A DNA stretch of 64,000 nt from Balneicella halophila (GTDB taxonomy: Bacteria; Bacteroidota; Bacteroidia; Bacteroidales; Balneicellaceae): assembly GCF_003096835.1 (NCBI RefSeq), contig NZ_QENZ01000003.1:930001-994000 (forward strand), in the 5' to 3' direction. The notes below the pieces were generated by a model. That model was given only the letters and a program-made list of their open reading frames with translations, had not been told where the DNA came from and did not search any database. Shown here piece after piece: positions 39,230 through 51,425 of this stretch (within the stretch, counting starts at the first letter, position 1; each line of letters starts with the position of its first letter). Made by a program: the position numbers and the translations under genes.

Positions 39230-41873
39230 TAAAAATTTAATGTTTATACCAAAAATAATAGATTTAGTTGGTGGTGTTGCAAGGTTAGTAAATCCACTTG
39301 CACCTACTTCAGGGTCATATACTAGGTAATCATCTTTAAACCAGGTATATAAGTTGGTACTACGAACAAAAATCTTAGCACCTGTTAAATGCACTTTTTC
39401 TAACAAACTTTCATTAAAGTTATAACCTAAGGTTAAAGCTTTTTATCGGAAATAATCACCATCATGTAATAATTTACTATGACTTTGCCATGGATAATAG
39501 GTATATTCCATTTTACCGTTGCGTGCAATATCTCCTGGCTTTTGACATCTGTCCATTAATGTATTTAAACCATTGAATACTGTAAGAGGATAAGCATGAG
39601 CTTGGTTAATATAACGGTGCCAATCTTCATAGATTTTATGTCCACCTGCATAATAAGCATTTGCATCTAAGAATACGCCTTTGAAATCAACATGAAGGTT
39701 TATACCTGCAGTGATTTCCGATAATGCACTACCTCCTTGCCACGCTTGGTTAGCTTCGTTATAATCATCTGTTTTCTCACTGCCTTCACCATCTACATAC
39801 CACTCTTCATTTCCAGTTTCTGGGTTTACTCCAGCCCAAGTAGGCATATACCAACCATATACTGGGTGACCTGTTGCTACTCTTTGTGTATTCGAAGTTA
39901 TGTTAATCTCTTCACCATTAAGGTCTTTAGCTAATTTCAGAACTTCATTCTTTGTAGTCGCTACGTTACCTCCAATACTTAAATTAAAGTCACTACGACG
40001 TACAATATCAAAATTCATTTCTAGCTCAACACCATAATTTTCCATCTCGCCAATATTACGTGTTTGTCTTGCTCTACCATTAGAATCTAAAATACCTACT
40101 GTGTATGAAAGTGGTACTTCTAATAAAAGATCTGTTGAGTTTCTTTTATAATAGGCAATCGACCCCGTTAGTTTATTTTCTAAGAAACCGAAATCTAACC
40201 CAATATCAAATGTTTTTGAGTTTTCCCAGGTTAAATTTTTATTGCCGAAAGTTCCAACATAAGCTGCACCTTCTCCTGCATAGTCTGAGTCAAAGTATAA
40301 CAGAGATTGGTATAGATTAATACCGATATTTGCATTACCAGTGATACTATAAGATGTTCTAAGTTTTAAATTGGATATGAAGTCCACATTATCCATAAAT
40401 TGTTCACGATGAACATTCCATGCAGCACCGATAGCACCAAAATTACCCCAGCGTTCTTCTGCGGCAAATCTAGAGTTACCTTCTCTTCTATAAGTAAGAT
40501 CTAGTACATATTTACCTTGGAATGCTGAATAGTGAGCCATCGCTAAATATGATGCTACAATCCAATCACTTGTTTGTGAATCCACAGCAGTTGGATTACC
40601 TGTTGAATTTAAGTTTGTTAGACCTACATCACTAAATTGATCTGCTTCTCCATAAAAGTAAAAGCCCTTAAACTTTTGTCATTCTTGTAAAAGTGTAAAA
40701 TCTAGTTTATGGTCTTCACTTATTTCCCAGAAATAATTTAATGAGTTTTGAATGGAATAGGTTACTCTATTTCTAGTTGTTTGACTTCCAGTACCATTTG
40801 ATGTTTCACCATCACCTAATATTGGGTTTTGGTATGTCTTGTAACTAAAAGTATTCCAATCAATATTTATCCTTGAAGTAAAAGAAAGATTTTCAATAGG
40901 AGTGATCCAATTCAGGCTATTGTTAGAGATAATTCTAGTGTATTTACTAAGATTCATATCATGTTCTGCAATGTACAATGGATTATTCATTGTTCCAGTA
41001 TTCATGTTTATACTACCATATAAGTGTTTAGTACAGCTTCATACGTTAATTCCTCACGTTGAGCAGCAGTAAGTACTTTAGGTTCATCAATAGCATCATT
41101 AGAAAATCCTAACGTGGCTTTAAATTCCAATTTAGCTTTACCCTTTCTACCTGATTTGGTAGTGATGACGATAACACCATTTGCACCACGTGCACCATAA
41201 GTAGCAGTTGCAGAAGGATCTTTCAAAACTGTGATACTTTCTATGTCTGAACTATTCAAACTTGAAAGTTCTGAAAGTGAAGAAGCTCCAGTACTTCCTG
41301 AGTTTCCAATGTCTGAATTGTTAACAGGAATTCCATCAACTACATACAGAGGGCTGTTACCTGCTGTAATGGAACTAATACCCCTAATTCGAATATTCTG
41401 CACTGAACCTGGAGTACCTGATGTTGATGCAATATTAACACCTGCAACTTTACCTTGCAATGCTTGATCAACTGAAGCTACGGGTAAATCAGCTAGCTCG
41501 TCAGAATCTACCTGAACTGAGGAGCCAGTAAGCTCACTCTTATTCTGTGAACCATAACCGAGTACAATGACCTCATCAATTAAAGTAGCATCAATGACCA
41601 TTGTTAGCTTTCCAGCATCTTTAGTTGCAATTTCAATAGGTTTCATCCCTATGGCAGTAAATTCAAGTATTGAATTTCCACTAGGTACTGTAAGTGTCCA
41701 ATTACCATCAATGTCAGTAGCCACACCATTCATAGGATTGGCTTTTTCTAAAACACTAACGCCTGGTAATCTAAGCCCGTCAGGACCAATTACCTTACCA
41801 CTGAACGTTTTTTGAGCCCAGGCACTTGAAATACCTAATGCTAAAAAAACGAGTAAGAACATAAGTTTTTTAT
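39230..41873 (-). pseudogene. SusC family TonB-linked protein, broken at several points (pair 2)
   Basis: The order of damage from the 5' end is: (1) the G of the initiator ATG is missing at about 41872, leaving only an internal Met at 41862; (2) at 41005-41010 the plug-domain frame stops in TAA and resumes, in another frame, in the mid-barrel, with about 160-200 residues missing compared with the 1043- and 1081-residue copies; (3) an in-frame TGA at 40681-40679; (4) an in-frame TAA at 39445-39443; (5) the final codon where a stop is expected after GINIKF is TTA. Between these points the protein sequence is well preserved, which suggests recent loss. Confidence 0.9.
41640..41862 (-). repeat. 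Direct repeat: SusC 5' end, copy 2 (decayed gene)
   Basis: The last 111 bases (41761-41871) differ from the pair 3 gene (46621-46731) at only five positions that I counted; further in, similarity falls. Same orientation as copies 1 and 3. Confidence 0.7.
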
Positions 41874-48317: not shown

Positions 48318-48346
48318 GATTTAGTTAAGAAGTTCACAGAAGTTTA

Positions 48347-48381
48347 AGCCAATTGTTGTAAATCAATAGTTGGCTTTTTTT
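48347..48381 (+). terminator. Terminator after the DUF2795 gene
   Basis: A 12-pair stem AGCCAATTGTTG / CAATAGTTGGCT (two or three G-T pairs), loop TAAAT, followed by seven T. Confidence 0.85.
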
Positions 48382-48398: not shown

Positions 48399-48428
48399 TT
48401 TGTGCTTAAATATTTTAACGTATTTTTG
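48399..48428 (+). promoter_or_regulatory. Promoter of the large barrel protein gene
   Basis: TTTG at 48399-48402, 18 bases, TATTTTTG at 48421-48428: an excellent match. Initiation near 48435 makes the GTG at 48402 impossible as a start and supports the ATG at 48450. Confidence 0.65.
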
Positions 48429-48449: not shown

Positions 48450-51425
48450 ATGAAAAAGTTAGTGCTTTTAATTTTCGTTTTTTTACTTTGTTCTGTTACC
48501 TATTCACAATATTATTCTACAGGACAGGATAGAAGCTCTATTTCTTGGAGAGAAATAGAAACAGATGATTTTCAATTAGTTTACCCATCTTATTTTGAAA
48601 ACCAAGCACAACGATTAGCAGCTATTTTCACAGAGCTTTATCATTTAAATAAAAAAAGTCTGAAAGTACAGCCAAAGAAGGTATCTATTGTGTTACATGC
48701 AGAGACTACAAAGTCTAATGGCTACTTTGCTTGGGCACCAAGACGCGGTGAGTTATATAGTACTCCACCCAATGCAGGTTTACCTAATGATTGGTTAGAG
48801 CATCTGGCTACGCATGAGTACCGACATGTTGTTCAAATGGATAAGCTCCATGAAGATTTACCAAAGATTTTGACCGTTTTGTTTGGGGAACAAGCAGTGC
48901 CAGCAGTTTTGAGTTACAAAGTACCTATGTGGTTTATGGAAGGTGATGCAGTGCTCTCAGAAACGTTACTAAGTAATGCCGGGCGAGGACGTTCACCAAA
49001 ATTTTTACAGGTGATGAAAGCACATTTGTTAGAAAATGAAAACTGGTATAGCTATGATAAAGCTTCTTTAGGATCTTTTAAAGATTATGTGCCTAATTAT
49101 TACGAATTTGGTTATTTTATGGTAGCAAATACGCTTAAAAACTATGGTGATGACTTCTGGATTAATGCACTGGCAAAGGCAGGGGAATATCCTTATCCGT
49201 GGTATAATTTTGCAGAATTTAGTTTGAAGAATGAGGAGAGAAAACGTACATTTCAAAAACTTATACAAGAACTTGATTCCCACGCAGAAACCGAAAGCAC
49301 TTTTGATTCAAAGGAATTAGAAATAGCAGAAAAGTGGAATAATAATGCGCATAAAAATGCTACTGTGACATTATATAATGATAATATGACGGAACTGCAG
49401 GCACGTTGGAAGCAAGAGCAAAGTTTAATAGATACTACTACCTATCAACCCTTATCAAAGTCTGTAAAAATTTATACAAATTACACATCCCCTCAAATAT
49501 TAAATGATGGGAGTATCGCGGTGTTGAAATCCGGGTATGAAGACTACCTGCAATTTGTAAACTTAAAAAATGATGGCACTGAAGAAGTTTTATTCACTCC
49601 AGGAAATCTGACGAGCAAAATAAATGTAAACGATGAATTTCTGTATTGGACAGAAGATATACCCCATATCAGATGGACGGAAAATTCTCATTCAGCACTT
49701 TACTACTTAGACGTCATTTCAAAAAAGAAGAGAAAAATACCTTTTGACCGTGATTTGTATATGCCTTCAGCTAATGAAGACAATTCTTTGATTGTAGCAG
49801 TAGTTAAGAATGATGACTATACAAACGAGTTGGTAGTACTAGATAGGGAGACTGGGGAATTGAAATATCAATATAACTTTGGCAGTACTCGAATTACAGA
49901 TCCTCAATTTATAAATAGTTCAACTATAGCATACATTTTCACCGAAGACGGAACAGGTATAGCTGAGCTCAACCTTAAGACCAAGGAGAAGGATTTACTT
50001 GTTGAAATATTTAATGTAGCACTATCTGATTTGGAGTATTCTGATGGAAGTCTATTATTTACAGCAGGATATGAAGGTAAAAATGATATCTATAAACTAG
50101 AGATGGACACTAGCAAGCTGATAAAACTGACAGAATCTCCCTATGGAGCTTCAGAAGCAACCATTAGTGGTGATAAATTAGTGTATGTAAGCTATACATC
50201 TAAAGGAAACCAAGTGGTATCAATGGACTTAGAAGAAGGAGAAAATATTGAGGTAGAACCAAAAGCATGGAACGACGACTTATTACTGCAAGCTGTAAAT
50301 CATCAACAAAAGGAAGCAGAGTTAAGCTATGATAAAAGTTTGGCATTTTCTTCCAATCATTATTCTAAAAGTAAAAAGTTATTTAATTTCCATAGTCGCT
50401 CTCCGTTTGCATTTAGTTCTGGTGATTATGATTTGGGAATTTCTACAACATCACAGAATTTATTAAGTACTATGTTTGTAAATGTTGGGTATCGTGACAA
50501 AAGTGGTTACAAAAATGGACAAGCCTATGCTAATTTGGTTTACAAGGGATGGTTTCCAATTATCTCCACAGAATTAAGCTACGGGAAACAATCAAGAAGA
50601 CTGTTAACAATATTAGATAATCAAAATCCCATTGATACTGCAACAATTAAGCAAGAAAAGAGAAGGTGGGAGTGGGAGACTGAGGTCAGCTTACCTTTTG
50701 ATATTTCTAGAGGGAAATATTCACGGCATATTACCGTGTCAACAGGTTTAGAATTTACAAAAGACAGAAAAGTAAAACATACTTATTTGAGTGGTACCAG
50801 TGACATATCTTCTTACAAGGAAGGAGATCCAATTCACCTAGGTCTAGAGAAAACACACAAGTTGTTAAAATACAATTTCGTCTTTTCTAATCTTCATAAG
50901 CGGTCTTATCGTGATCTTTACAGTCCATTTGGTCAGCAACTTTCATTTACTTATCGTCACACTCCATTTGATGATGATAATGCTTATACCTATGCTGCGG
51001 AGGGAGTATTTTATTTTCCCTCATTGATAAAACATCATGGTATTAAGTTATATGGTGCTTATCAATATCAGCCTGAACAAAATGAGTTCTTGGATGATAA
51101 TATTGAGCATCCTCGTGGCACTTCCTCATTGTTAAGTGAGAAAAAATACACTTTGATGTCTAATTATAAGTTTCCATTAGCTTATCCTGATTGGAATCTT
51201 GGAAGAGTGCTATATGTAAAACGTGTCAATACAGCATTATTCTATGATTATGGGTTGTCAAAGACAGAGGATTATTCTAAAAATATTCATTCATTTGGAA
51301 CGGAATTTACTGCCGATGCCCATATTCTGCATATCCCGATCCCTATAGTGTTTGGAGTTCGTGTAGGTTATGAAACACAAACATCAGATATGTTCTATGA
51401 TGCCTTGCTGTCTATAAGATTTTAA
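48450..51425 (+). CDS. Secreted metallopeptidase-like / beta-propeller / outer-membrane barrel protein
   Basis: 991 residues from the ATG at 48450: signal peptide MKKLVLLIFVFLLCSVTYSQ; a gluzincin-like zinc domain with HEYRH at residues 122-126 and a downstream PMWFMEGDAV whose Glu (about 164) could be the third ligand; a middle with repeated TolB/PD40-type propeller strands (about 310-610: SIAVLKSGYEDYLQFVN, NSLIVAVVKN, ISGDKLVYVSY); and a C-terminal part of alternating strands (about 640-991) ending ALLSIRF, as outer-membrane barrels do. The combined architecture is unusual; function unknown. An open frame reaches back to a GTG at 48402, rejected because of the promoter. Confidence 0.7.
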   Translation: MKKLVLLIFVFLLCSVTYSQYYSTGQDRSSISWREIETDDFQLVYPSYFENQAQRLAAIFTELYHLNKKSLKVQPKKVSIVLHAETTKSNGYFAWAPRRGELYSTPPNAGLPNDWLEHLATHEYRHVVQMDKLHEDLPKILTVLFGEQAVPAVLSYKVPMWFMEGDAVLSETLLSNAGRGRSPKFLQVMKAHLLENENWYSYDKASLGSFKDYVPNYYEFGYFMVANTLKNYGDDFWINALAKAGEYPYPWYNFAEFSLKNEERKRTFQKLIQELDSHAETESTFDSKELEIAEKWNNNAHKNATVTLYNDNMTELQARWKQEQSLIDTTTYQPLSKSVKIYTNYTSPQILNDGSIAVLKSGYEDYLQFVNLKNDGTEEVLFTPGNLTSKINVNDEFLYWTEDIPHIRWTENSHSALYYLDVISKKKRKIPFDRDLYMPSANEDNSLIVAVVKNDDYTNELVVLDRETGELKYQYNFGSTRITDPQFINSSTIAYIFTEDGTGIAELNLKTKEKDLLVEIFNVALSDLEYSDGSLLFTAGYEGKNDIYKLEMDTSKLIKLTESPYGASEATISGDKLVYVSYTSKGNQVVSMDLEEGENIEVEPKAWNDDLLLQAVNHQQKEAELSYDKSLAFSSNHYSKSKKLFNFHSRSPFAFSSGDYDLGISTTSQNLLSTMFVNVGYRDKSGYKNGQAYANLVYKGWFPIISTELSYGKQSRRLLTILDNQNPIDTATIKQEKRRWEWETEVSLPFDISRGKYSRHITVSTGLEFTKDRKVKHTYLSGTSDISSYKEGDPIHLGLEKTHKLLKYNFVFSNLHKRSYRDLYSPFGQQLSFTYRHTPFDDDNAYTYAAEGVFYFPSLIKHHGIKLYGAYQYQPEQNEFLDDNIEHPRGTSSLLSEKKYTLMSNYKFPLAYPDWNLGRVLYVKRVNTALFYDYGLSKTEDYSKNIHSFGTEFTADAHILHIPIPIVFGVRVGYETQTSDMFYDALLSIRF

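Follow-up and report, generated by a model that had tools for sequence, protein, structure and literature searches.

In the 64,000-nucleotide stretch of Balneicella halophila DNA analysed here (the window), an open frame on the forward strand from 48450 to 51425 was translated into 991 codons plus a stop (Table 1). The mechanically called ORF starts further 5′, at GTG 48402. However, a TTTG-N18-TAnnTTTG sequence, which we take to be a Bacteroidota-type promoter motif, overlaps this GTG and is preceded by a terminator-like hairpin, and the two sites favour ATG 48450 as the likely start of the gene. Since the promoter-like site sits behind the hairpin, a separate transcript for the gene is probable; both sites occur at near chance frequency across the scanned region, and it is their position alone that argues for them. 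The N-terminus reads as a signal peptide, and the first residue after it, Q20, was invariant in 75 of 75 rows of the alignment described below.

Table 1. Features at the locus of the 991-aa protein, with window positions, strand and the basis of each call.
Feature	Position	Strand	Basis
Terminator-like stem-loop, upstream of the 991-aa gene	48346..48376	+	1 found vs 1.6 expected by chance
Promoter-like TTTG-N18-TAnnTTTG	48399..48428	+	11 matches in the window vs 6.6 expected
Predicted gluzincin-propeller-Omp85 gene	48450..51425	+	991 aa, ORF translation
Putative signal peptide, residues 1-19	48450..48506	+	read by eye; non-lipoprotein type; ends ...TYS before Q20
Predicted peptidase domain and C-terminal helical linker, residues 20-330	48507..49439	+	domain folded alone, fold comparison
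HEYRH zinc motif, residues 122-126	48813..48827	+	translation, alignment
WFMEGDA, residues 161-167, candidate third ligand E164	48930..48950	+	translation, alignment
Clade-specific insert of ~38 residues (264-301)	49239..49352	+	alignment
TolB-like beta propeller, residues 335-598	49452..50243	+	profile and fold match
Predicted 16-stranded Omp85-type barrel, residues 646-989	50385..51416	+	predicted structure, fold and profile comparison
PRG motif, residues 888-890, loop between strands 11 and 12	51111..51119	+	model and alignment

The first-pass annotation had described one 991-residue chain with peptidase, propeller and barrel parts, and had proposed structure prediction as a check for three separate domains. 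The alignment used for the prediction comprised the window protein and 74 of 80 loci fetched with the pattern PxWFxEGDA[VI]. The predicted full-length structure (mean pLDDT 88.6, pTM 0.88) and the open frame both bore out the single chain, and three confidently modelled domains were obtained, namely an alpha/beta-then-helical peptidase part, a propeller and a domain of 16 long strands. The HEYRH motif with a downstream Glu, which the annotation had also read from the letters, was recovered in the model as residues 122-126 and E164, carried by two separate helices in a gluzincin fold. Its outer-membrane-type C-terminus, read as a barrel of the protein's own, was modelled as a 16-stranded Omp85 barrel rather than a generic anchor. 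The peptidase core was the most conserved part, with a mean majority-residue share of 0.62 vs 0.44 for the propeller and 0.46 for the barrel, and with 47 of 235 columns at ≥90% (propeller 13/264, barrel 36/322), although the ten columns of the fetching pattern are biased in these shares.

The family is widespread, being common in the order and having relatives across the phylum. It was present in 34 of 60 genomes of the order, the window's own included, after one genome (G059) with a propeller match alone was dropped from the raw tally of 35. In the phylum sample, the peptidase profile matched in 134 of 247 genomes, with E values below 1e-60 in 25. The fused architecture recurred there: among the phylum matches listed, almost all frames were 930 to 1282 aa long, and the only one below 930 aa had 706 aa. 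By eye, and using motifs and lengths, we sorted the proteins into three groups: group 1, to which the window protein belongs (HExRH...WFxEGDA); group 2 (HEFTH...PAWxAEG type, 1026-1170 aa); and group 3 (HELVH, 948-1063 aa), for which the Glu position was taken from an added alignment because several members lack a WxxEG string. Group 2, which occurs in other Bacteroidota classes, makes up 13 of the 20 loci L194-L213. Its members share the architecture of the window protein but are longer, carry the motifs given above and lie in a PorV/M6 operon; PF13485 and PD40 score above or close to their cut-offs in them. P. gingivalis PG534 might conceivably be a relative.

Because Foldseek searches with the whole model were dominated by the propeller, the peptidase part (311 residues) was folded separately, giving a pLDDT of 87.6 and a pTM of 0.85. 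Its best fold matches were Grimontia collagenase (Z 14.0, rmsd 3.4, 215 aligned) and M30 lugdulysin (Z 14.0), followed by M1 aminopeptidases (Z 12-13), and collagenases of Vibrio and Clostridium also matched; all of these we take to be gluzincins. The predicted structure places HExxH on the helix spanning residues 115-136 and E164 on the one at 160-174, and on this model the domain is of the gluzincin (MA clan) type, with an HExxH helix and a Glu on a second helix. PF13485 (Peptidase_MA_2) did not match the window protein in the profile search and was passed by two group-2 relatives (35.1 and 36.4 bits vs a cut-off of 32.4). PF10026 (DUF2268) gave E values of at most 1 in 38 of the 75 rows (best 6.4e-6), with 13.8 bits vs 23.6 for the window protein, and M48 (PF01435) matched one of 75 domain sequences at 0.0057 and not the window protein. 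The insert at residues 264-301 extends the linker that follows the peptidase core, and a longer linker is also present in the Marinifilum, Labilibaculum and Ancylomarina relatives.

The residues of the putative zinc site are kept almost throughout the sequence sets compared. H122, E123, H126 and E164 were identical in 75 of 75 alignment rows (the pattern-fetched loci and the window), in which the second zinc motif is conserved by construction. In a set from the 60 order genomes that was gathered independently of the motif, all 29 proteins in which the site could be read had HExxH and the Glu, a 30th, cut by a contig end, being left out; in a second motif-independent set, whose genomes overlap with the first, the site was kept in 20 of 21. 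Two further sets found with a profile, itself built from the pattern-fetched loci, gave 29/29 and 20/20. In the two motif-independent sets, the conservation of the zinc site is more than chance. HExxH was lost only in L051:5410-8370, one copy of a tandem pair of family members (L051:5410-11446, minus strand) in a genome without a GldL match.

The TolB-like strands of the earlier reading were confirmed by both profile and fold. The propeller matched the TolB profile 4jml at E 2.6e-16, and residues 335-597 were superimposed on the TolB structure with Z ~22 and rmsd ~3 over ~235 residues. The likeness to TolB of the Tol-Pal system concerns only the propeller, and the window protein did not reach the corresponding model TIGR02800 (24.5 bits vs a cut-off of 343). 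The same genome also has a 720-aa frame with a weak match to the propeller alone (L002, G000:C3:160704-161048).

The C-terminal domain is, by the model, a barrel of the Omp85 superfamily (BamA/TamA/Sam50), as indicated by its 16 strands, an RG motif, the fold scores and profile links through related groups. The strands were counted from residue 647 to 989, one three-residue strand (915-917) being discounted. The barrel was superimposed on Sam50 (Z 18.0, rmsd 4.2, 281 aligned), Flavobacterium johnsoniae BamA (Z 17.7, rmsd 4.4, 291 aligned) and TamA (Z 17.4, rmsd 4.3, 268 aligned). P888-R889-G890 falls between strands 864-873 and 898-911, a place that we take to be the site of the RG motif in loop L6 of Omp85/BamA; the G was kept in 75 and the R in 71 of the 75 rows. 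Direct sequence evidence for Omp85 in the window's own group is weak, with one of 75 rows matching Pfam Omp85 (E 0.041) and an hhalign probability of 14.4% against 31 Omp85 barrels of the order genomes, and the link passes through groups 2 and 3. The own-group barrel profile matched that of group 3 at 1.6e-10 and that of group 2 at 2.2e-6, the group-2 barrel matched Omp85 at 6.8e-14 (probability 98.1%), and the group-3 member L201 passes the Pfam Omp85 cut-off (24.2 vs 24). Control comparisons with TonB-receptor barrels gave 0.005 to 0.1; a generic outer-membrane or TonB-receptor barrel was rejected, as the TonB-receptor profiles showed no comparable link. Elsewhere in the window, a TonB-receptor match at 39701-40897 on the minus strand contains one in-frame TGA and may be a broken gene. 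Only ~47 residues (599-645) separate propeller and barrel, in which the model leaves no room for a POTRA domain, and no POTRA family was among the profile matches listed for the window protein. Three separate, ordinary Omp85 genes (PF01103 matches) were found in the same genome, so the 991-aa protein need not be essential for assembly. A 16-stranded membrane barrel is given as the defining feature of the Omp85 superfamily (PMC4104836).

Based on these domains, we tentatively propose that the protein acts as an outer-membrane-anchored, periplasm-facing zinc endopeptidase on clients that are stalled, misassembled or in need of trimming, in the manner of BepA/YcaL. As read from the sequence, the chain would be exported through its signal peptide, and the predicted Omp85-type barrel would then sit in the outer membrane. 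The peptidase and the propeller would hang on the periplasmic side, like the N-terminal domains of Omp85 proteins. The TolB/BamB-like propeller, in the place that POTRA domains take in BamA, could serve as a docking platform for clients or partners. In the least certain step, the gluzincin domain would cut those clients as BepA/YcaL do, with the barrel and the propeller supplied in cis. The clients would most likely be proteins that assemble at the outer membrane or cross it on export, and the family probably trims or removes proteins there. The first-pass annotation had suggested a surface or periplasmic peptidase tethered by its own barrel. The tether agrees with the model, and of the two locations we retain the periplasm and not the surface, because the Omp85 nature of the barrel, with the known Omp85 topology and the example of PlpD (PMC11116518), makes the periplasm the most likely place for the N-terminal domains.

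The main rival explanation, which we regard as less probable, is that the enzyme is dedicated to maturing a single exported protein or a few of them, such as type IX secretion system (T9SS) cargo. It draws its support from the gene neighbourhood of group 2. An M6-like inactivated T9SS-dependent protease (NF052323), which bears a T9SS sorting tail, precedes the group-2 gene on the same strand in 12 of 13 loci (at ≤112 bases in 10 loci, and at 670 and 1729 bases in two), a DUF5683-like gene immediately follows it in 11 of the 13, and 8 of them have a PorV-family gene ~3.1 kb upstream; the family names rest on two members each, one DUF5683 member being below the cut-off. An operon of PorV-like, M6 pseudo-protease, gluzincin-propeller-Omp85 and DUF5683-like genes was noted at L194, L195, L198, L202, L204, L206-L209, L212 and L213, not every one of which has all four genes. 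The M6 pseudo-protease scored above its cut-off in 89 of the 247 genomes of the phylum sample, and the operon offers a concrete candidate substrate. On the other side, it was over the cut-off in none of the 60 genomes of the window's order, and a single T9SS sorting tail was seen in the genome of the window; therefore, the PorV/M6 operon informs on the wider family and not directly on the window protein. Co-occurrence with the T9SS was useless as a functional test, since GldL is present in 57 of 60 order genomes, and one genome (G008) has two family copies and no GldL match. In group 1, no recurring functional-looking neighbour was seen across 100 loci and the window. Its commonest neighbour families, present at ~20 of ~100 loci, resemble housekeeping genes, and a conserved operon partner was rejected, the frequent neighbours (by eye, pseudouridine synthase, PanB and pyrD-type genes) looking like clade synteny. 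The neighbourhood of the sister group would nevertheless serve in tying the wider family to the handling of exported proteins. Nothing in these results separates quality control from the maturation of a dedicated substrate.

Rather unlikely, in our estimate, is a PlpD-like arrangement in which the Omp85 barrel merely anchors a periplasmic hydrolase for housekeeping or nutrition and neither inserts nor translocates other proteins. PlpD provides a precedent, as an enzyme carried on an Omp85 barrel with its enzyme domain in the periplasm (PMC11116518), and the lack of space for a POTRA domain at residues 599-645 points the same way. Assembly-competent Omp85 proteins keep the RG motif of L6, however, and so does this family. 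We consider it equally doubtful that the protein would be a one-chain assembly-and-proofreading machine, in effect a BamA-BamB-BepA fusion, in which the Omp85 barrel receives clients, the BamB/TolB-like propeller presents them and the zinc protease destroys or trims failures, the sister branch being devoted to the T9SS pseudo-protease. A surface protease, with the peptidase and propeller carried outwards by the barrel, was the other alternative of the earlier reader and has a parallel in an early PlpD model cited in PMC4104836, but it is improbable given the N-terminal position of these domains before an Omp85 barrel and the later placement of the PlpD enzyme domain. That the peptidase is an inactive scaffold is very improbable, since the zinc site is kept in all readable proteins other than the tandem-pair relative that has lost HExxH.

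The periplasmic endopeptidase proposed here can be compared with several known systems. BepA, YcaL and LoiP are likewise zinc metalloproteases tied to outer-membrane protein assembly (PMC13067283), but they belong to another peptidase family (M48) and have neither barrel nor propeller. BamA and BamB of the BAM complex also pair an Omp85 barrel with a periplasmic propeller, as separate proteins with POTRA domains and no protease; canonical BamA and TamA carry POTRA domains before the barrel, which the window protein lacks. A term search for TolB and peptidase in two papers on the Bacteroidota BAM complex (PMC12611786, PMC12578637) gave no match in the text searched, and "propeller" in the latter refers to BamI, compared there with BamB. 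PlpD, a patatin-Omp85 protein, is a hydrolase fused to an Omp85 barrel as well, but with a patatin lipase domain and without propeller or zinc site; several Omp85 subfamilies with other, non-POTRA N-terminal domains are described as poorly characterised (PMC11116518).

The first-pass annotation knew of no defined function for such a combination. The open-access literature searched (subscription papers were outside its scope) yielded no account of a gluzincin domain carried by an Omp85 barrel. The pairing of propeller and barrel was already described in "WD40-Omp85" proteins, which were likened to a fusion of BamA and BamB (Heinz and Lithgow 2014; PMC4104836). Compared by architecture, those proteins likewise have a propeller most like TolB before an Omp85 barrel and no POTRA domain. 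The terms "peptidase", "HExxH" and "zinc" are absent from the main text of that paper, and "metalloprotease" there denotes a different subfamily (PF00149). The family allows direct tests of whether an Omp85 scaffold with a protease means quality control, maturation or mere anchoring. While a propeller before an Omp85 barrel was known, what the window protein adds to the WD40-Omp85 architecture is a conserved zinc protease, predicted to be of gluzincin type, in front of it, in a widespread branch of the Bacteroidota.
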